DNA from: Streptococcus massiliensis DSM 18628
GTDB lineage: Bacteria; Bacillota; Bacilli; Lactobacillales; Streptococcaceae
Direction of reading: 5' to 3'
Assembly: GCF_000380065.1 (NCBI RefSeq)
Contig: NZ_KB904372.1
Location: forward strand, 1-32,231
DNA length: 32,231 nucleotides
Position numbers and translations under genes: made by a program. The notes under the pieces were generated by a model. It was not told the origin of the DNA. It was given only the letters and a program-made list of their open reading frames with translations, and did no database searches. How positions within the stretch are numbered: the first letter of the stretch is position 1; every line of letters begins with the position of its first letter. Of the stretch, positions 9,562 to 21,627 are shown in pieces.

Positions 9562-9690
9562 AAAATTGAAGAAATTCCTTTAAAATTGTCCTGTGAGACA
9601 GTCAAGGAGTTAACAGTTAAAAGACTAGTTTAGTGTGGTGCTATGCTTGTATTTTCTGGAACCTCCTTGTTTCAAGGAGGTTTTTCTTAT
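9562..9690 (+). promoter_or_regulatory. PyrR-binding pyr attenuator leader
   Basis: The leader contains GTCCTGTGAGAC (from 9588), matching the PyrR-binding loop consensus (UCCnGnGAG core). It ends in a strong terminator hairpin before pyrR. By analogy with the Bacillus pyr operon, UMP-bound PyrR stabilises the binding hairpin, which frees the terminator and stops transcription when pyrimidines are plentiful. I did not fold the alternative antiterminator. Confidence 0.85.
9660..9687 (+). terminator. Attenuator terminator before pyrR
   Basis: AACCTCCTTG/CAAGGAGGTT (9660-9669 with 9673-9682) is followed by TTTTT. The hairpin lies between the PyrR site and the pyrR start, so it is a conditional terminator. 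Confidence 0.9.
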
Positions 9691-9702: not shown

Positions 9703-10233
<531 letters not shown>

Positions 10234-10236
10234 AAG

Positions 10237-11511
10237 ATGAATACAGAGATTCGCTATGATGTCAAGGATATGCCAAAAGCAGGTTTGTTATTAGGCTTGT
10301 CCTTTCAGCACCTCTTTGCCATGTTTGGGGCAACCGTTCTAGTACCAATTTTGGTAGGAATTGACCCAGCAGTCGCGCTCTTCTCAAGCGGGCTAGGAAC
10401 TTTGGCGCATTTGACAGTTACTAAATATAAGGTGCCAGCCTACATGGGTTCCAGCTTTGCTTATATTGCAGCCATGCAGCTTCTGATGAAGACAGATGGG
10501 ATTGCAGCAGTTGCCCAAGGGGCAATCACAGGCGGTCTGGTTTACTTTATCGTTGCACTTATTGTCAAGTTTGCAGGTAATGCTTGGATTGATAAGGTTT
10601 TGCCCCCAATCGTAGTTGGGCCAGTTGTCATGGTTATCGGTCTCAGTCTTGCGGCAACGGCTGTTAGTGATGTCATGAATATCAATGGTCAGTACAGTTT
10701 AACAAACTTCACTATCGGGATGGTCACTCTCCTAGCAGTTGTGCTCTTTAACATCTATGGCAAGAAAATTGTTGCCATTATTCCAATCCTTTTGGGTTTG
10801 ATTGTTGGCTATCTCTTTGCACTGGTTCTGGGGATGGTCACAGGACAAGAAATCATCTCTTTTGCGGGAGTGACTAAGGCGGCTTGGTTTCATTTACCAC
10901 CAATGCAATTACCTTTCTTACATTACGGATTTAAAATCTATCCAAGTGCAATTTTAACCATGGCACCGATTGCCTTTGTGACCATGACTGAACACTTTGG
11001 GCATGTCATGGTTTTGAATAGTCTGACCGGTCGTGACTTCTTTAAGGATCCGGGACTTGATAAAACTCTTGCAGGAGATGGGTTAGCTCAGGTCATTGCT
11101 GGTTTCTTTGGGGCACCGCCAGTGACTAGCTATGGCGAAAATATTGGTGTTATGGCGCTCAATAAAATCTACAGCGTTTACGTCATTGCAGGAGCAGCAG
11201 TACTTGCGGTAGTGATGAGCTTTGTCGGTAAGGTTTCAGCACTCTTGCAATCCATACCGAGTCCAGTCTTGGGTGGGATTTCGATTGCCCTTTTCGGGGT
11301 TATTGCGTCAAGCGGTTTGAAAATCTTGATTGAAGACCAAACAAACTTTGATAATAAGAAAAATCTTCTCATTGCAAGTATTATCCTAGTTTCAGGTATT
11401 GGGGGATTGACCTTACAAATTTCTGGTCTACAAATTTCAGGTGTTGCCCTGTCAACAATCCTGGGAATTGCTCTTTATCTCATCTTACCCGAGCCAGATA
11501 CAAATCATTAA
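10237..11511 (+). CDS. pyrP: Uracil permease (NCS2 family)
   Basis: This 424-residue transporter has about 12 to 14 hydrophobic segments and imports uracil with protons. The NCS2 signature region is visible as [17 protein letters not shown], and [13 protein letters not shown] is a further conserved stretch. It starts three bases after pyrR, so it is read from the same attenuated transcript and will be low when pyrimidines are abundant. It is often named uraA. Confidence 0.95.
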
Positions 11512-11600: not shown

Positions 11601-12524
11601 ATGTCAACAAATCAAATCGCTCTCAAAAATCTTGTATCTATGGAAACTCTCTCAAATGAAGAAGTTTTGAGCCTGATTAAACGCGGAATTGAATTTAAAA
11701 ACGGTGCCAAGGTGCACTATGACGACCAGCACATCGTTTCTAATCTCTTTTTTGAATCTTCAACTCGAACGCACAAGGCATTTGAAGTCGCTGAGTTAAA
11801 ACTTGGCTGCGACCTGCTTGATTTTGATGTCAAGACCAGCTCGGTCAACAAGGGAGAAACCCTCTACGATACGATTTTGACCATGTCAGCACTGGGAGTT
11901 GATGTCTGCGTCATCCGCCACTCGCATGTGGATTATTATAAGGAATTGATTGAAAGTCCGACGATTACGACTTCCATTGTCAACGGTGGAGACGGCTCTG
12001 GGCAACACCCTAGCCAAAGTTTGCTAGATTTGATGACTATTTATGAGGAATTTGGACATTTTGACGGGCTCAAGGTAGCCATTGCAGGTGACCTATCTCA
12101 CTCACGCGTTGCCAAGTCCAATATGATGATTTTGAAACGTTTGGGAGCGGAGCTTTTCTTTGCAGGACCAGATGAATGGCGGACACCTGAGTTTGAAGAC
12201 TATGGAACCTTTGTCACGATTGACCAAGTCATTGATCAAGTGGATGTTATGATGTTGCTTCGTGTGCAACACGAACGCCACGATACTTACGGCGATTTCT
12301 CTAAGGCTGCTTATCATCGTGCACATGGACTGGATCAAGCTCGCTATGATCGCATGAAAGACCATGCTATTATCATGCACCCTGCGCCAGTCAACCGTGA
12401 TGTGGAGATTGCTGATAGCTTGGTAGAAGCTCCAAAATCACGGATTGTCAAACAAATGACTAATGGTGTCTTTGTCAGAATGGCGATTATTGAAGCAGTA
12501 TTGGCAGGACGTGGTGCGAAATAA
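11601..12524 (+). CDS. pyrB: Aspartate carbamoyltransferase catalytic subunit
   Basis: PyrB joins carbamoyl phosphate to aspartate, the committed step of pyrimidine synthesis. The 307-residue protein keeps the carbamoyl-phosphate loop [12 protein letters not shown] (SSTRT at 53-57), [14 protein letters not shown] and HPAPVNRD (260-267), so it looks fully functional. I start at 11601 ([10 protein letters not shown]); an upstream in-frame ATG would add 26 unrelated residues. The next two genes, which should supply carbamoyl phosphate, appear catalytically dead, so its substrate must come from another source or another synthetase. Confidence 0.96.
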
Positions 12525-12546
12525 GGAACAGATGAGTAAATTTTGT

Positions 12547-12577
12547 AGGCTTGGCGGAAAAGGATTTCGTCAAGCCT
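12547..12577 (+). promoter_or_regulatory. Stable hairpin between pyrB and the carA-like gene
   Basis: A 10-bp stem (AGGCTTGGCG at 12547-12556 with CGTCAAGCCT at 12568-12577, one G-U pair) sits a few bases before the ribosome binding site AGGGGG of the carA-like gene. It is followed by only four T, so it may be a weak attenuator or an RNA-processing site. Its role is not known. Confidence 0.6.
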
Positions 12578-12594
12578 CTTTTAGGGGGCAAGCT

Positions 12595-13683
12595 ATGAGC
12601 AAACGATTACTTTTACTGGAGGATGGAACGCTATTTGAAGGTGAAGCATTTGGGGCGGATCTTGATGTAACTGGAGAGCTGATCTTTACAAGCAGCCAGA
12701 CAGGTTATCAGGAGATCATCACAGATCTTTCTTATACAGGACAGATATTAGTCTTTAGTGCGCCTTCTGTTGGCAACACGGGTATTAGCCGTGAAGACTA
12801 TGAATCCATCATTCCGACTTGTAAGGGTGTGGTCGTGCGCGATGGGAGCAAAGTGTCAGACACATGGCGAAGTCAAATGTCGCTGGACGCATTTTTAAAG
12901 CTTAAAAAGATACCCGCAATCAAAGGAATTGATACACGAGCCTTGATGCGAAAAATTCGTCAAGCAGGTAGTATGCGGGCAACAATGGCAAATGTTGGTG
13001 ATCAGATTTCACATATGCAGGATCAACTGCAAGCAACTGTACTTCAGACAGATCATGTCAAGCAAGTTTCAACTAAAAACCCTTACCCAGCACCCGGTGG
13101 TAAGCGAAATATCGTTTTGATTGATCTTGGGCTCAAGCATTCTATGCTGCGTGCTTTGGCTCAGCGGGATTGTACAGTGACTGTTTTGCCTTACGATACA
13201 AGTGCGGAAACAGTACGTCAGCTTTTTCCAGATGGAGTCTTCTTATCAAATGGTCCTGGGGACCCCAGTGTTTTATCAGAAACCTTAGACTTGGTTCACC
13301 AACTTCAAGGAGAAATTCCGCTCTTTGGCATTGGTTTAGGGCATGAGCTGATTGCTTTGGCAAATGGTGCTCAGATTGATAAGTTGGCAATCTGTCATCG
13401 TGGGAATGCTCTAGCAGTTCGAGAAATCGCAACAGGACAGGTTCATTTTACTAGCCAAAATCACGGTTACATTGTTAATCGTCAAAGTTTACCAGAAGGA
13501 TTTTTTATCACTCATGAAAATGCCCTTGATCAAACAATTGCCGGTTTACGGCATCGCCATTTACCTGTTTTATCAGTGCAATTCAATCCAGAAGCAAGCC
13601 CTGGTTCCCATGATTTAAGTGCGATTTTTGATGAGTGCATGGAGATGATTGAGGCATTTTTGGAAAGGAAGACAAGGAGATGA
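12595..13683 (+). CDS. carA: CarA-like protein with lost glutaminase residues (pseudoenzyme candidate)
   Basis: The 362 residues align over the full length of the carbamoyl-phosphate synthetase small subunit. The N-terminal domain ([35 protein letters not shown]) and the class I amidotransferase domain ([20 protein letters not shown]) are recognisable. The glutaminase cannot work as usual. The nucleophile motif GICLGHQ reads GIGLGHE, putting Gly247 in place of Cys and Glu251 in place of Gln. The catalytic His in VQFHP is Asn331, while Glu333 is kept. Each change is one base from the normal codon (GGT for TGT, AAT for CAT, GAG for CAG). The frame is fully open, has the site AGGGGG and overlaps the carB-like gene by ATGA. 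I infer a non-catalytic subunit. Confidence 0.85.
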
Positions 13684-15245
13684 AAGCAGCTCAAAATCAG
13701 AAAATACTCGTTTTAGGAAGTAGTGATGAGTCGTCACTAGGTCTGCTTTTAGAGGTTTGCTCTGCTTTGAAAAATGAAGGCAAGCAAGTTTGTTTGCTTC
13801 ATCGTGGCAATCCTATTTTAAACTTGCTGCCAGAGGAACAGTTCTGTTTGGTTGAATGGACTTTGGAGAACTTCCAATCCGTTTTGAAAAAAGTTCAACC
13901 AGAAGCAGTCCTTCCAACTTTTACAGATTCTCAAGAAATGCATCTTTTATTAGCTCTTGAAAAAAGAGAAGATTTTCGAAGCACCAATATTATAGGTTTT
14001 TCTCCACAGACGTTAAGCAAACTGAATAATCAGACCTTACTGGCAGAATGCCAGCTGAAAGGAGACGGACATTCCTTTAAATATGGCAAAAGAATAACTT
14101 TTCAGATTTTACGTGACAGCGTGGGTACAACGATGATTGTGGCTAGTACAGAACAAATGGATCCTTGGAATGGTCAGAAGGAGGAATCTTTTATCTTCTC
14201 ACCAACTCAGACTCTTTCAGATGTGGAATATCAACTTTTACGAGATAGTAGTTTGAAGATTGCGCGTGCTCTGCATCTGGTGGGGCTTTGTACGATTGAC
14301 TTTATTTTGTCACCAAATAGTAGTGATTTTTCTGTTCATTCTCTCCAACTAGGTTTGACAAAAATAACAGCACTTGCCAGTCAGATTTCTACTTTTCCTC
14401 TTCCAAGTTTGATGGCTCAGCTAGCATTAGGAAAAAAGTTAACCGAGCTTATCAATCCTGTAACTCAGACAAGCTATGCTAGTTTTGAGCCCGTATCGGA
14501 TTTTATCGCAACTCAGTTGTTAGGAGAGGACCGATTTGCTCTAGGTTTTAGTTGGGAAGAAAGTTTACTCAGGTTTTGTCAATCGTCCTCTTTGGGTGTT
14601 CAGTCTTTGGAACAACTAGATGATGTTAGCCTTATGGGTAAATTATCCCATAGTAAAAATCGTCCCTTCTACTTGCTTGAGGCTTTGCGGCGGGGGTATG
14701 AAGTAAAAGAATTAGCAGAATTGACAAGAATTAATCTCTTCTTTATAGACAAGCTAAGAGGGATTGTTGAAATGGAAAGAGCCATTATGGCAAAAAGGGT
14801 CGACAAGGAAATTCTAAAGAAAGCTAAGCAAATGGGCTTTTCAGATGATAGGATTGCTGCGCTTTGGCAAATGGAAAGAAAGGAATTGACCAATTTTCGT
14901 CAGCAAGCAGAAATTTTTCTTCGTTATAAAGGTGTGGATGGCTGCGCTGGAGCCTATAACAGTCAGCCAACTCTTTATTACAGCAGTTACTTTGGTGAAA
15001 ATGAGTTAGCGGTTGAGGAACGTCAGCCCCTACTCATCGTAACTGATAGAATACTAACCGTGACAGAATTGCCAGATGTGACAAAGTACAAGAAAGTGAT
15101 TCTCGTTACTGACCAAGTCAATCCCGTTTTGCCTTCAGGAATCCAAGCAGACAAAATCTATCTTGAACCTCTGACAGCAGAATATTTAGAGGCACTTGTG
15201 GCAGCAGAAAATGTGGCGACGGTGTGGGATGGAAGAAAGAAGTAG
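13680..15245 (+). CDS. carB: Half-length CarB-like protein lacking synthetase active sites
   Basis: The 521 residues correspond to the first half of the carbamoyl-phosphate synthetase large subunit, normally about 1060 residues. Residues 1-110 resemble the pre-ATP-grasp domain but read GSSDESSLG where GSGPIIIGQ is expected. After about residue 122 some 75 residues are missing, including the glycine-rich ATP loop. The metal ligands are replaced (Asp207, Ser221, Gln223 where Gln, Glu and Asn are expected). A second gap near 285 removes the LGTQMKATGEVM region. The helical oligomerisation domain (about 290-445) is best kept. The protein ends in a remnant of the second pre-ATP-grasp domain (449-519). 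There is no internal stop. It probably cannot make carbamoyl phosphate; a scaffolding or regulatory role is inference. Confidence 0.85.
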
Positions 15246-15351
15246 ATATAAGCTTATTGAGTGTAGAAATTGGACTGAAATTTCATTATTTTCCCCGTAC
15301 AAGAGAATACATGATAAAATAGTTATAAGGATATTGAAGGGAGGGCCTAAC

Positions 15352-15957
15352 ATGGCTCAGACACAACTTGATCTTGCTTGGCAGGCTTTATTTGAGGGGA
15401 GAATTGATGAGGCAGACCAGTTATCACAAAATTTGCTCGAAGATTATGAAGTTTGGAACTTACGCTCTTATCTAGCAGTAGAAAAAAGAGAGTTCAAGCA
15501 AGCACTGGACTGGCTATCCCATTATTACGATAAGGCATTAGTGGAAAATAATAAAGAAAAGCAGCATATAGCACTCCACCAACAGGCTTTTGTGATGCGT
15601 GAATCAGGAAATTTGGTGCAGGCTTTGAAATATATTCATAAGGAAAAAGCTTTATTAATCCAGTATTTTCCAAATGATGTACTGAAACAATCAGTTAACA
15701 TTTACGAAGAGGGTTATTTGACTTTTCGATTAGGAAATGTAACTGAAGGCGAGGCGATGATGAAGCGGGCACTTAAATTAGCGCTAGAGACAGAAGATTT
15801 GATTGCTCAAGCCTGTTGCTACCGTGCTTTAGGAGAAATGTCTGATATTCAAACACAGGCACAAATTTATTTTGAGCGTGCTATCGAACTATTCGAACAG
15901 TCAGGAGATCTTGTTGGCGCTGAAAAAGTACGAGAATTACAACAATATTTTACTTGA
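15352..15957 (+). CDS. TPR-like helical repeat protein, function unknown
   Basis: This 201-residue soluble protein consists of repeated helical pairs with small and aromatic residues at the spacing expected of tetratricopeptide repeats, for example ALKYIHKEKALLI, EGYLTFRLGNVTEGEAMMKRALKLA and CCYRALGEMSDIQTQAQIYF (last segment EQSGDLVGAEKVRELQ). I see no catalytic motif, signal peptide or membrane segment, so it probably binds another protein. The ATG at 15352 follows GGGAGGG. It lies 106 bases after the carB-like gene with no strong terminator between, so it may share the pyr transcript. I cannot name it. Confidence 0.75.
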   Translation: MAQTQLDLAWQALFEGRIDEADQLSQNLLEDYEVWNLRSYLAVEKREFKQALDWLSHYYDKALVENNKEKQHIALHQQAFVMRESGNLVQALKYIHKEKALLIQYFPNDVLKQSVNIYEEGYLTFRLGNVTEGEAMMKRALKLALETEDLIAQACCYRALGEMSDIQTQAQIYFERAIELFEQSGDLVGAEKVRELQQYFT

Positions 15958-15998
15958 GCAGCAAATGAAATCATTTGTGTAGAAAAAGGGTGATAGAT

Positions 15999-16943
15999 AT
16001 GTCACGATTGTTAGAAACTTTAGCAGAAAAACCTATTTTAATACTAGATGGTGCTATGGGGACAGAGCTGGAAAAACGTGGTTATGATGTTTCGGGTACG
16101 CTCTGGTCAGCCAAGTATTTGTTGGGGGAACCTTCTCCCTTGATTGAAATTCATAAGGCATATTTAGAGGCGGGAGCAGATCTTGTAACAACAGCTAGTT
16201 ATCAGGCTTCTTATCAAGGTCTTTTGGAAGCGGGCTTGACCAAACAGCAGACAATATTGGCTATCAAAGAGAGTGTTCATATTGCGCGGGTTGCCATTGA
16301 AAAAGTGTGGGCTGACTTGTCCGAACGAGAAAAAGAAGGGCGGCTCTATCCCTTTATTGCTGGTTCTGTTGGTCCTTATGGAGCTTACTTGGCAGATGGT
16401 TCTGAATATACCGGTGCTTATCAGCTAACTAAGGAAGAATTTCAGAATTTTCACCGTCCAAGAATCAAGGCTCTTGTAGAAGGAGGAGTTGATTTACTGG
16501 CTTTTGAGACAATTCCTAATTTAACAGAAGCCCGTGCCTTACTAGAGCTTCTTTATCAGGAATATTCAAACGTGCCAGCTTATCTTTCTTTCACTAGCCA
16601 GGACGGACAGCATATCTCGGATGGTTCTTCCCTAAAAAAGGTGGTAGAGCTGGTTAATTGCTACTCAGCAGAGCTTTTGGCCGTTGGAATTAATTGTAGC
16701 AAACCAGCAGTGACAGTAACTTTTCTTAAACAACTTAGACGACTGACAGATAAAGAATTTGTCGTCTATCCTAATTCTGGCGAGGAATATGACGGGATAA
16801 ACCATGCTTGGTATGAGGAAGGAAGTACGACCGATTTGCACACTCAAGCTAAAATCTATCAAAAGTTAGGCGCACGCTTTATTGGGGGGTGTTGTCGGAC
16901 GAGACCGGTCGATATTGCTGGCTTGGCTGAATATTTTCATTAA
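15999..16943 (+). CDS. mmuM: Homocysteine S-methyltransferase
   Basis: MmuM makes methionine from homocysteine with S-methylmethionine (or S-adenosylmethionine) as methyl donor. The 314-residue product begins with the family motif ILDGAMGTELEKRG. It carries the zinc-binding cysteines in GINCSKP (about 232) and IGGCCRTRP (298-299), along with AGSVGPYGAYLADGSEY. The start at 15999 is behind GGGTGAT. The short gap from the TPR gene holds the palindrome CAAATGAAATCATTTG. No S-methylmethionine transporter gene (mmuP) is adjacent in this window. A clear terminator follows. Confidence 0.94.
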   Translation: MSRLLETLAEKPILILDGAMGTELEKRGYDVSGTLWSAKYLLGEPSPLIEIHKAYLEAGADLVTTASYQASYQGLLEAGLTKQQTILAIKESVHIARVAIEKVWADLSEREKEGRLYPFIAGSVGPYGAYLADGSEYTGAYQLTKEEFQNFHRPRIKALVEGGVDLLAFETIPNLTEARALLELLYQEYSNVPAYLSFTSQDGQHISDGSSLKKVVELVNCYSAELLAVGINCSKPAVTVTFLKQLRRLTDKEFVVYPNSGEEYDGINHAWYEEGSTTDLHTQAKIYQKLGARFIGGCCRTRPVDIAGLAEYFH

Positions 16944-16959
16944 ATCATCATAAAATTTT

Positions 16960-16973
16960 AGAAAACGCTTTCC
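16960..16973 (+). promoter_or_regulatory. cre-like catabolite-control site before the FNT gene
   Basis: AGAAAACGCTTTCC matches 12 of 14 bases of the palindromic cre form TGAAAACGCTTTCA bound by CcpA. It lies upstream of the transporter promoter and overlaps the mmuM terminator, so part of the similarity may come from the hairpin. Confidence 0.4.
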
Positions 16974-16989
16974 AATAAGGCGTTTTTTT
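16962..16989 (+). terminator. Intrinsic terminator of mmuM
   Basis: AAAACGC/GCGTTTT with flanking CTT/AAG pairing is followed by a T run. The left arm coincides with a cre-like sequence. Confidence 0.8.
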
Positions 16990-17015
16990 GTTATGATAGT
17001 TCTTGTAAATATTAT
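16988..17015 (+). promoter_or_regulatory. Promoter of the formate/nitrite transporter gene
   Basis: TTGTTA (16988-16993) and TATTAT (17010-17015) are 16 bases apart, just before the site AAAGGGAG and the ATG at 17043. Confidence 0.55.
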
Positions 17016-17042
17016 CACAATTTAAAGGGAGATTTTTATATT

Positions 17043-17840
17043 ATGGCAGAATCAACATTTCTTGCAAAAATCACAGGAGCAAGTCAAAAAAAGGAGCAAT
17101 TATTTAATAGTAGTAAGGGACGCTATGCTATCCGTTCTCTCTTTGCTGGCGCTTTTTTGACGCTCAGTACCGCAGCGGGAGCTATTGGGGCGGATGTCAT
17201 CAATAAAATCGCTCCGGGCTCAGGTCGCTTTGTCTTTCCAGCTTTCTTTGTCTGGGGGCTGGCTTATATCGTCTTTCTCAATGCAGAACTGGTGACGTCC
17301 AACATGATGTTTCTGACGGCTGGGACTTATCTGAAAAAGCTCAAGTGGCAAAAAGCTGCTGCCATTTTGCTCTATTGTACTTTCTTTAACCTCATCGGCG
17401 CTTTGATTGCTGGCTGGCTCTTTGCGCATTCGGCAGCCTTCTCGTCTTTGAGCTACGATAGTTTTATCGTCGGCGTGGTGGAAAATAAGCTGGCGCGGTC
17501 CAATGAACTCGTCTTGCTAGAGGGGATTTTGGCAAATGTCTTTGTCAATATTGCCATTCTTAGCTTTGCCTTGGTCAAAGACGGCACTGCCAAATTGCTC
17601 TTGGTTTTATCAGCTATTTATATGTTTGTTTTCTTGACCAATGAACACATCGCCGCCAACTTCGCCTCCTTTGCTATCGTTAAATTCAGCCAGGTAGCAG
17701 GAGAAGTCAAAAACTTTGATATTCCTAATATTTTGCGGCATTGGGGAGTGACTTGGATTGCCAATCTGATTGGTGGTGGCTTCTTGATTGGGCTACCGTA
17801 TGCTTGGCTCAATAAAGATCAGGATCTCTATGTCGACTGA
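17043..17840 (+). CDS. Formate/nitrite transporter (FNT) family channel
   Basis: The 265-residue membrane protein has about six hydrophobic helices and fits the FNT family of pentameric formate, nitrite or related anion channels. Family features include the FLNAELVTSNMMFLTAG segment and the conserved pore histidine in FLTNEHIAANF (His202). Streptococci ferment sugars to formate through pyruvate formate-lyase, so formate is the likely cargo, but lactate or nitrite cannot be excluded by sequence. The gene is alone between two terminators. A cre-like site upstream suggests control by carbon supply. Confidence 0.88.
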   Translation: MAESTFLAKITGASQKKEQLFNSSKGRYAIRSLFAGAFLTLSTAAGAIGADVINKIAPGSGRFVFPAFFVWGLAYIVFLNAELVTSNMMFLTAGTYLKKLKWQKAAAILLYCTFFNLIGALIAGWLFAHSAAFSSLSYDSFIVGVVENKLARSNELVLLEGILANVFVNIAILSFALVKDGTAKLLLVLSAIYMFVFLTNEHIAANFASFAIVKFSQVAGEVKNFDIPNILRHWGVTWIANLIGGGFLIGLPYAWLNKDQDLYVD

Positions 17841-17846
17841 TATGCA

Positions 17847-17879
17847 ATTAGCCTTTCAATTCAGAAGGCTAATTTTTTT
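17847..17879 (+). terminator. Intrinsic terminator of the FNT gene
   Basis: ATTAGCCTT/AAGGCTAAT (17847-17855 with 17865-17873) is followed by a T run. Confidence 0.9.
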
Positions 17880-17900
17880 AAAAAATTATGTAAAAAAGTA

Positions 17901-17929
17901 TTGACAAAAATTATAAAATTATGTAAAAT
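17901..17929 (+). promoter_or_regulatory. Strong promoter of clpL
   Basis: A perfect -35 TTGACA (17901-17906) and TAAAAT (17924-17929), with TG before the -10, are 17 bases apart. The region is extremely AT-rich. Confidence 0.85.
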
Positions 17930-17935
17930 AAATTA

Positions 17936-17955
17936 TGTAAACAAATTGGTTTACA
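17936..17955. promoter_or_regulatory. Candidate operator palindrome downstream of the clpL -10
   Basis: TGTAAAC and GTTTACA (seven-base arms, six-base gap) form a perfect palindrome just after the -10, where a bound repressor would block transcription. TTATGTAAA occurs three times around the promoter (17886, 17919, 17933), the last overlapping the left arm. No CtsR heptads or CIRCE element are visible. Confidence 0.5.
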
Positions 17956-18004
17956 CAAGACCTTTCGCTTATATAAGGAAATAGAAAATAAACGAGGTAT
18001 AAAT

Positions 18005-20116
18005 ATGAACAACAATTACAACGATTTTAACAACATGGACGACATTTTCAATCAACTCATGGGAGGGATGCGCGGCTACAACAGCGAAAACCGCCGCTAT
18101 CTGATTAACGGACGCGAAGTCACACCAGAAGAGTTTGCGGAGTATCGGGCAACGGGACGCTTGCCTAAGAGTGTAGGCGCTTCGCAAGCAGTGGAAGGAC
18201 AAGCCCAAGCACCTAAGGGAGACAGCATCTTGGCAAAACTCGGCCGCAATCTGACAGCTGAAGCGCGCGAAGACATGCTAGACCCTGTCATTGGGCGCAA
18301 CAAGGAAATCCAAGAAACAGCTGAAATCCTGTCTCGCCGCACCAAGAACAATCCTGTCTTGGTCGGAGATGCTGGGGTTGGTAAAACCGCTGTTGTTGAA
18401 GGCCTAGCGCAAGCGATTGTCCACGGAGATGTGCCAGCAGCAATCAAAAATAAGGAAATCATTTCCATTGATATTTCAGGTTTGGAAGCGGGCACTCAAT
18501 ACCGCGGTAGCTTTGAAGAAAATATCCAAAACTTGATTTCAGAAGTGAAAGAGCATGGTAATGTCATTCTCTTCTTTGACGAAATCCACCAAATTCTTGG
18601 TGCTGGAAGCACAGGCGGCGACAGCGGCTCCAAAGGCTTGGCGGACATTTTGAAACCTGCTTTGTCACGCGGTGAGTTGACCGTTATCGGGGCAACGACG
18701 CAGGACGAATACCGCAATACCATTTTGAAGAATGCAGCCTTGGCGCGCCGTTTCAACGAAGTCAAGGTCAATGCACCGTCTGCGGAGGATACTTACAAGA
18801 TTCTCCAAGGTATTCGCGACCTCTACGAAAAGCACCATAATGTCATTTTGCCAGATGAAGTGCTCAAGGCCGCAGTGGATTACTCTGTCCAATACATTCC
18901 ACAAAGGAGCCTACCTGACAAGGCCATTGACTTGATTGATGTGACGGCGGCTCACTTGGCAGCGCAGCACCCTGTGACAGATGTGCATGCAGTGGAGCGC
19001 GAAATTGCTGAACAAAAAGAAAAGCAGGAAAAAGCCGTTGAGGCAGAAGACTTTGAAGCGGCTCTTAACGCTAAGACGCGGATTGAAGAGCTCGAAAAGA
19101 AAATTGCTAACCACACAGAAGACATGAAAGTGACCGCAACGATTAACGATGTGGCTGAGTCAGTAGAGCGGATTACAGGCATTCCAGTTTCTCAAATGGG
19201 CAGCAGCGACATTGAGCGTCTCAAAGAAATGAACGCTCGGCTCAAGACCAAGGTCATTGGGCAAAACGAAGCCGTAGAGGCAGTGGCGCGTGCAATCCGC
19301 CGTAATCGTGCAGGTTTTGACGAAGGCAACCGCCCAATCGGTAGCTTCCTCTTTGTCGGGCCGACCGGTGTCGGCAAGACCGAGCTGGCTAAGCAGCTGG
19401 CGCTTGATATGTTTGGCACCAAGGACGCGATTATTCGGCTGGACATGTCTGAGTATTCTGACCGCACTGCGGTTTCTAAGCTAATCGGGACAACGGCTGG
19501 CTATGTCGGCTATGATGACAATAGCAACACGCTGACCGAGCGCGTCCGCCGTAATCCTTACTCTATCATCTTGCTGGACGAGATTGAAAAGGCTGACCCG
19601 CAGGTCATCACTCTCCTGCTTCAAGTCTTGGATGACGGTCGTTTGACGGACGGGCAAGGAAACACGGTCAACTTCAAAAATACCGTGATTATCGCAACTT
19701 CTAACGCTGGCTTTGGCTATGATAGCTTTACTGGCGACGAAGAGAAAGACAGCAAAATCATGGATCGCTTGAAACCATTCTTCCGTCCAGAGTTTCTCAA
19801 CCGTTTCAACGCAGTCATTGAGTTTTCTCACTTGAGCAAGGAAGACTTGGGTCAAATCGTGGACTTGATGTTGGCTGAAGTCAACCAAACCTTGGCTAAA
19901 AAGGACATCAGCCTTGAAGTGACCGACGCGGCTAAGGACTACCTCAAGGAAGAAGGTTACGACGAAGTCATGGGCGTGCGCCCACTCCGTCGGGTCATTG
20001 AGCAGCAAATCCGCGACAAGGTGACCGATTATCACTTAGACCACTTGGAAGACAAGCATTTGCTGGCGGATATGAAAGACGGCGAGCTAGTGATTAGCCA
20101 AAAGACAGATGAATAA
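18005..20116 (+). CDS. clpL: ATP-dependent Clp protease-like chaperone ClpL
   Basis: ClpL is a class 1 HSP100 AAA+ disaggregase of Gram-positive bacteria. It works without ClpP and protects cells from heat and some antibiotics. The 703-residue protein lacks the double Clp N-domain and instead has a short Asn/Gly-rich N-terminus ([13 protein letters not shown]). The first AAA+ module has Walker A GDAGVGKT (121-128) and Walker B VILFFDE (187-193). A short coiled middle region (about 330-375, [17 protein letters not shown]) follows, then a second module with GPTGVGKT (452-459) and [10 protein letters not shown]. The site ACGAGGT precedes the ATG. It is a single-gene unit whose richer codon use than its flanks suggests high expression. 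Confidence 0.95.
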
Positions 20117-20208: not shown

Positions 20209-20213
20209 TATAA

Positions 20214-20365
20214 GCGGTTTGAAAAAACTGCCTAAGACAGTAGGGGAGCTTGACTCATAAAGATCCTACCGAGGACAAAACGGATCATGTAAAAGAAACG
20301 TATTGTACTTTCGTGTCTAGGTTTGGGCGCGTTTTTCTTTTGGAAAAATTTCCCAAGCAAAATAA
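20214..20365 (+). ncRNA. Ribosomal protein L10 leader (cis-regulatory RNA)
   Basis: The long leader contains CCTAAGACAGTAGGGGAGC and TCCTACCGAGGACAAAACGG, the conserved core of the L10 leader family. In that family L10, alone or with L12, represses its own operon. The distance from promoter to rplJ (about 180 bases) is as expected. Boundaries are approximate. Confidence 0.85.
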
Positions 20366-21555: not shown

Positions 21556-21627
21556 GTCCCCTTAGTTCAATGGATATAACAACTCCCTCCTAAGGAGTAG
21601 TTGCTGGTTCGATTCCGGCAGGGGACA
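21556..21627 (+). tRNA. tRNA-Arg (anticodon CCT)
   Basis: The 72-base cloverleaf has acceptor stem GTCCCCT/AGGGGAC, anticodon stem ACTCC/GGAGT around the loop CTCCTAA (anticodon CCT, reading AGG), and a T arm GCTGG-TTCGATT-CCGGC. The discriminator base is A. The CCA end is not encoded. Confidence 0.95.

Follow-up and report, generated by a model that had tools for sequence, protein, structure and literature searches.

The closest described relative of the locus considered here is the glutamine-dependent carbamoyl phosphate synthetase, which is made up of a small glutaminase subunit, CarA (TIGR01368), and a large subunit, CarB (TIGR01369). We take the full large subunit to consist of two synthetase units and a C-terminal allosteric domain, about 1060 residues in all, with a glycine-rich ATP loop and, in E. 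coli numbering, the metal ligands Gln285, Glu299 and Asn301, and we likewise assume Cys269, His353 and Glu355 to be the catalytic residues of CarA. Isolated halves of normal carbamoyl phosphate synthetases are known to work as dimers. In mammalian carbamoyl phosphate synthetase I the glutaminase domain lacks the catalytic Cys, whereas the synthetase halves are undamaged and function with ammonia. The gene pair described below, from Streptococcus massiliensis DSM 18628, is homologous to carA and carB, stands in the same pyr operon gene order and retains a recognisable CarA profile and CarB oligomerisation domain, but lacks the glutaminase nucleophile, the ATP loop, the metal ligands, the second synthetase unit and the allosteric domain. 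It has a Cys-less glutaminase in common with the mammalian enzyme and differs from it in that the latter has kept its synthetase halves intact and active.

There is precedent for an inactive pyrimidine enzyme beside pyrB in the aspartate carbamoyltransferase of Pseudomonas, which is reported to be associated with an inactive dihydroorotase (PMC7053772). The streptococcal pair resembles this case in its position and apparent inactivity but is derived from another enzyme and occurs also where no PyrB was found. Growth without a synthetase also has parallels. In Thermococcus, ArcB has been shown to supply carbamoyl phosphate, and that study describes synthetase genes as absent and pyrimidines as made from arginine-derived carbamoyl phosphate by way of ArcE and ArcB (PMC13260591); in streptococci a comparable route is suggested by gene content, although here an inactive remnant pair is kept. 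According to a study of oral bacteria, taxa lacking the synthetase can obtain carbamoyl phosphate from the arginine deiminase pathway (PMC10986539). No report of an inactive half-size pair was found in searches of open-access papers.

The window (the whole stretch of DNA analysed, 32,231 nucleotides) is one entire contig of an 84-contig draft genome. Its pyr operon runs on the forward strand in the order PyrR-binding RNA element, pyrR, uraA, pyrB, carA, carB. The RNA element upstream of the operon (9573..9690; Rfam RF00515, 64.6 bits against a cut-off of 54) is the single match to that family above cut-off in the window. It is followed by pyrR, the operon regulator (9712..10233; NF003548, 306.7 bits, cut-off 218), by a uraA/pyrP-like uracil permease (10237..11511; PF00860, 310 bits; TIGR00801, 394.9 bits, above cut-off; NF007995, 413.1 bits, below its cut-off of 477) and by pyrB, encoding an aspartate carbamoyltransferase that looks functional from its sequence (11607..12524; NF002032, 361.9 bits, cut-off 263). 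The operon then continues with a carA-like gene of 362 codons (12595..13683) and a half-length carB-like gene of 521 codons (13680..15245), the two overlapping by 4 nt. PyrR elements also reached cut-off at loci L103, L104, L106 and L132, but not at L125 or L135. Other RNAs in the window are a Srn266 RNA (45-155), an L21 leader (246-316), an L10 leader (20213-20347) and a tRNA (21556-21627).

A sequence-only reading of this DNA had described 13680..15245 as an open frame encoding a half-length CarB from which the ATP loop, a second segment, the metal ligands and the whole second half had been lost. The frame is indeed open on the forward strand through 521 codons, and an alignment of its product with the CarB of E. 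coli and with nine full CarBs from streptococci bore out each of these losses. The columns corresponding to E. coli residues 128-207, the ATP-grasp A subdomain with its glycine-rich loop, are mostly missing (69 of 80 consensus columns), at a junction placed at 14025..14051, the exact base depending on the alignment. A further 20 columns are gone within E. coli 301-402, between about residues 359 and 384 (junction 14511..14537). At the former metal and ATP site (14298..14348) Asp207, Ser221 and Gln223 stand in place of Gln285, Glu299 and Asn301, and nothing aligns beyond about E. coli residue 640, so that neither the two-unit architecture nor the allosteric domain of a large subunit is present; no remnant of the second half was found downstream within 12001-20000. 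In agreement with this, the protein reaches only 242.8 bits against TIGR01369 (cut-off 1027), its ATP-grasp match is restricted to the C-terminal part of the domain (profile positions 90-210 of 211) and its pre-ATP-grasp match is weak. The oligomerisation domain is present (CPSase_L_D3, 14652..14867; PF02787, 84.4 bits, cut-off 26.6, E 7.2e-25). Of the columns invariant in ten full CarBs, those retained by the protein number 10/13 and 18/27 for the oligomerisation domain, compared with 19/47 for ATP-grasp B, 0/28 for ATP-grasp A, 20/65 for the 301-402 segment, 21/75 for the pre-ATP-grasp part and 13/43 for the tail.

On profile scores alone the upstream gene would be named carA (NF009475, 428 bits against 221; TIGR01368, 401 against 307). 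At the three catalytic positions, however, it reads Gly, Asn and Glu: a GGT codon (13333..13335) places Gly247 where Cys269 is expected, Asn331 takes the place of His353 and only the Glu355 position retains its residue, while Gln273 is replaced by Glu. The earlier description of a CarA-like partner was thus right in that a CarA homologue adjoins the half-length gene but missed the absence of the catalytic Cys; judged from these residues, the product would be an inactive glutaminase subunit and both active sites of the enzyme appear to be gone. The substitution is not peculiar to this genome. The nucleophile position is Gly in all 30 species found to carry a half-length CarB, and Cys in all 12 sampled rows with a full-type CarB. 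These 12 are E. coli and 11 streptococci, of which two have a broken carB.

These 30 species were found in surveys, with one genome per species, using the PF02787 profile in 247 species and the 521-residue protein as query in 284 Streptococcus species genomes. Half-length CarBs of 521-580 residues occur in at least 30 of the 284, and in the 29 species other than that of the window they are the only CarB found. The remaining species comprise 26 without a match and 228 that are counted as having a full CarB by exclusion, a few of these with broken carB frames; because frames were read for only part of the 228, further short forms may be concealed among them and 30 should be taken as a minimum. 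The notion of a short form unique to one genome, under which the sequence-only reading would have been undermined, is therefore wrong for the architecture and true of the exact 521-residue form, the other 29 proteins being 576-580 residues long when counted from the first start codon. An assembly or sequencing artefact might be suspected, given an 84-contig draft in which the window is one whole contig. Against this, the same plan is found in 29 other genomes, in several of them within a single contig, and a hidden second CarB in the window's genome was ruled out: only one CPSase_L_D3 match was found genome-wide, and the other three ATP-grasp matches are frames of 349-465 residues that lack this domain. 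For the family an artefact is refuted, and for the window we regard its chance as negligible.

The half-length CarBs fall into four sequence types, with type A represented by the window, type B by 18 species, type C by eight and type D by three (G111, G232 and G252). All end near the same alignment position, type D some 15-20 residues further on, and each is immediately preceded by a CarA-like gene. In 28 of the 30 species the frames of the two genes overlap (gap -1 to -10), with two type D species at +11, whereas in full operons the gap is 23-360 nt in 12 of 12 and there is no overlap in any. These figures take the most upstream start codon and leave out two genomes with a broken carB. In one of them, G023 (L139 6392-9568), the gene aligns over its full length but is open for about 500 codons, with an in-frame stop near codon 499 or else a sequencing error; if it is not an error, this gene shows how a half-length form could begin. 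In the other, G081 (L140 6792-10059), the frame is broken near residue 350.

The residues kept differ between the types. All 26 type B and C species keep E215, G241, H243, E299 and N301, and all 26 have lost R169 and R303 and carry Lys for Q285 (R129, whose position varies with the alignment, was excluded from the argument). In type D, E215 and H243 are kept and the metal ligands are replaced by Arg, Gln and Gly; in type A, E215, H243, E299, N301, R169, R303 and Q285 are all lost. Since A, B/C and D have each lost different active-site residues, the common denominator of the family, as read from these sequences, is not the synthetase reaction. A working synthetase formed by dimers of half-length CarBs and fed with free ammonia could be imagined, given that isolated halves of normal synthetases do work as dimers. 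This is very hard to reconcile with the absence of the ATP-loop subdomain and the replaced metal ligands in type A, the loss of both arginines and replacement of Q285 in B and C, and the replaced ligands in D, and we give it scarcely any weight.

In 26 of the 30 species, those of types B and C, the ATP-grasp core is the most conserved part of the protein. Identity in its A and B subdomains is 98-99% within either type and 81% between the two, compared with 88-98% within B, 68-95% within C and 41-69% between B and C for the other parts of CarB. The previous claim that the oligomerisation domain is the best preserved part therefore holds for the 521-residue protein but not for types B and C, and the argument drawn from it for a structural role does not generalise to the family, because more than half of that domain's second part is deleted in these 26 species. 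The conservation of the core counts against the non-catalytic role favoured below, since it would also suit a catalytic or nucleotide-binding role. On that view the pair would have acquired a new activity, enzymatic or nucleotide-sensing, in types B and C at least, with their retained E215, G241, H243, E299 and N301, and type A would be a further reduced branch. The invariant loss of R169 and R303 and the Lys at 285 in B and C speak against such an activity, as do the missing ATP-loop subdomain and metal ligands of type A and the Arg, Gln and Gly of type D, and we consider it unlikely.

Whether functional or not, the genes do not look like decaying ones. Omega was estimated by the method of Nei and Gojobori within types B, C and D, no second type A species having been found. 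Median values were 0.032 (CarA-like) and 0.087 (CarB-like) in type B, where 16 of the 18 carA-like genes were used, the other two being broken, and 0.025 and 0.106 in type C; in type D only a single pair was usable for each gene, with values of 0.068 and 0.041. Reference values from three species with full genes were 0.046-0.059 for carA and 0.042-0.078 for carB. When a full carB was allowed to evolve neutrally to 40% identity, stops arose in 300 of 300 simulated runs, with a mean of 17.8 over 521 codons. Both genes are thus under purifying selection within types B and C. It might still be proposed that they are pseudogenes, so far open, on the way to a clean loss of carAB. Such loss does occur: carA and carB were absent from all six pyrB loci of CarB-less species that were read, five of which (L158, L159, L160, L162 and L163) are plain pyrR-uraA-pyrB operons in species with carbamate kinase. 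Gene-tree branches are moreover very long, and the carA-like frame is broken in two of the 18 type B species, by a shift in G226 and a stop in G204 (L109 9939-11029 and L122 10001-11092). The low omega in B, C and (from single pairs) D, the lack of stops after deep divergence, the overlapping frames and the spread over 30 species nevertheless leave this proposal strongly disfavoured.

If neither subunit is catalytic, carbamoyl phosphate would have to reach PyrB by another route. Across 11 species that have a full-type CarB, 145 columns of PyrB are invariant; the PyrB of the window keeps every one of them, the same is true of 27 of 27 short-type PyrBs compared, and PyrB scores above its curated cut-off in 28 of the 30 short species. 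A gene for carbamate kinase, arcC, was found above cut-off in 29 of the 30 (G252 is without it), in 23 of the 26 CarB-less species and in 95 of the 228 full-CarB species, the last figure being what is left of 147 once 29, 22 and G283 are subtracted; G283 was counted as CarB-less because it is absent from the matches of the 521-residue query. For the comparison of PyrB, PyrD and arcC, 20 full-CarB and 25 CarB-less genomes were picked by hand. Among the species examined, all 44 with PyrB and without a full CarB (28 short and 16 of the 25 CarB-less) have arcC (Fisher's test, p 3e-15, ignoring kinship). In the genome of the window, arcC and an ornithine carbamoyltransferase-like match stand 3.3 kb apart on one contig. 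With PyrB intact and arcC present in 44 of 44, the most likely source of carbamoyl phosphate for PyrB in the half-CarB species, on the evidence of gene content, is arginine breakdown.

The pair lies directly downstream of pyrB in 27 of the 30 species (26 and the window) and elsewhere in three, which makes PyrB a candidate partner in 27. In the extreme form of this idea the pair would serve PyrB alone as a subunit, much as the inactive dihydroorotase serves the Pseudomonas aspartate carbamoyltransferase, with the gene order and that precedent (PMC7053772) in its favour. However, no PyrB was found in G232 and G252, nor any PyrD above cut-off, although the pair is present behind pyrR in both. It is possible that PyrB is hidden in these genomes, which are drafts of 260 and 240 contigs, but both genes would have to be hidden in both. 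In G111 PyrB is on another contig than the pair. Furthermore, 16 of the 25 CarB-less species examined keep PyrB without any CarB-like partner found, and PyrB itself retains all its invariant columns. Since two species that have the pair yielded no PyrB, a partnership with PyrB alone is unlikely, and a dedicated PyrB subunit seems to us improbable. G111 also has a short-chain dehydrogenase-like frame (L103 9530-10342) between pyrR and the CarA-like gene; gaps of similar size to that interval are seen at L104 and L105. A second pyr cluster in the same genome (C60, L164) reads by eye as pyrB-pyrC-pyrK-pyrD-pyrF-pyrE, without carAB, and its PyrB is only 52% like that of the window.

On balance we think it probable, though well short of assured, that the two genes encode a pseudoenzyme pair with a non-catalytic binding, scaffold or regulatory role. 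The structural or binding role put forward by the sequence-only reading is upheld to the extent that catalysis appears lost in both subunits and relatives are under selection; the domain-based reasoning behind it is not. A CarA with a dead glutaminase would bind a half-length CarB with a dead synthetase, and the overlapping frames may couple their translation. The pair would no longer make carbamoyl phosphate, and PyrB would instead be supplied from arginine breakdown through a catabolic ornithine carbamoyltransferase, with carbamate kinase as its companion. Freed from catalysis, the pair could have lost the second half of the synthetase and changed fast, after which selection may have held it for a non-catalytic job, in which the two proteins would form a complex, expressed along with the pyrimidine operon, that binds, scaffolds or regulates. 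A wider reading, to which we give an even chance, is that there is a family of synthetase-derived pseudoenzyme complexes in at least 30 species, each a regulator or scaffold whose target is not, or not only, PyrB, and which arose once or several times when cells lived on arginine-derived carbamoyl phosphate. The target of such a complex probably extends beyond PyrB, but any particular partner we would name with low confidence. If the favoured interpretation is correct, a central enzyme has been metabolically replaced and yet kept as an inactive pair whose CarA half passes the profile cut-offs of a working CarA, and metabolic models could wrongly score such streptococci as having a synthetase. 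The link from arginine to pyrimidines would become testable in the half-CarB streptococci, and there would be at least 30 species in which to ask why a retired enzyme complex is kept.

A single origin of the short forms is favoured by the sequence data but not proven. Trees were built from samples of the 30 short rows (17 for the first CarA tree, 12 for the first CarB tree and seven for the second of each), and all short forms were joined with support of 93/97 (17 rows) and 86/91 (seven) for CarA and of 99/98 (12) and 97 SH-aLRT (seven) for CarB. The branches of the short forms drew long-branch warnings, and in trees built with one type at a time each type was unresolved and fell in a different place. 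Shared new residues in CarB exceed shuffled expectation for all six pairs of types, the weakest being A-D, with 27 shared compared with 19.1, a count matched in 33 of 2000 shuffles. For CarA the excess is seen in B-C, B-D, C-D and A-D (0, 2, 3 and 19 of 2000), while A-B and A-C stay within the range of the shuffles (243 and 118 of 2000). Judged by ClpE, the five relatives closest to the window's genome all carry a full CarB. Constraining the window's CarA to group with three of those relatives was not rejected (p 0.157); the same constraint for CarB gave p 0.001, which is not a clean result as those relatives do not form one group for CarB. The short forms may thus have had one origin with patchy inheritance, or several origins.

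Outside Streptococcus, no short CarB was present among the roughly 150 matches listed for 395 members of the order (Streptococcus included). In 25 weaker-scoring genomes of other genera, frames of 272-507 residues that looked half-length were seen in five genomes of one genus (g31), but those that were read in context are truncated: the match stops at a contig end in G486 (twice), G517 C66, G582 and G597 C4 and starts at base 5 in G517 C18, again cut by the contig end. Some genomes of this genus have two such cut CarB frames (L168-L173), as if near-identical carB copies had broken the assembly. A further shortened form, a CarB frame of 836-870 residues, is the only match in genomes of several other Lactobacillales genera (G598, G607, G438, G574, G524, G400, G515, G541, G532 and G332).
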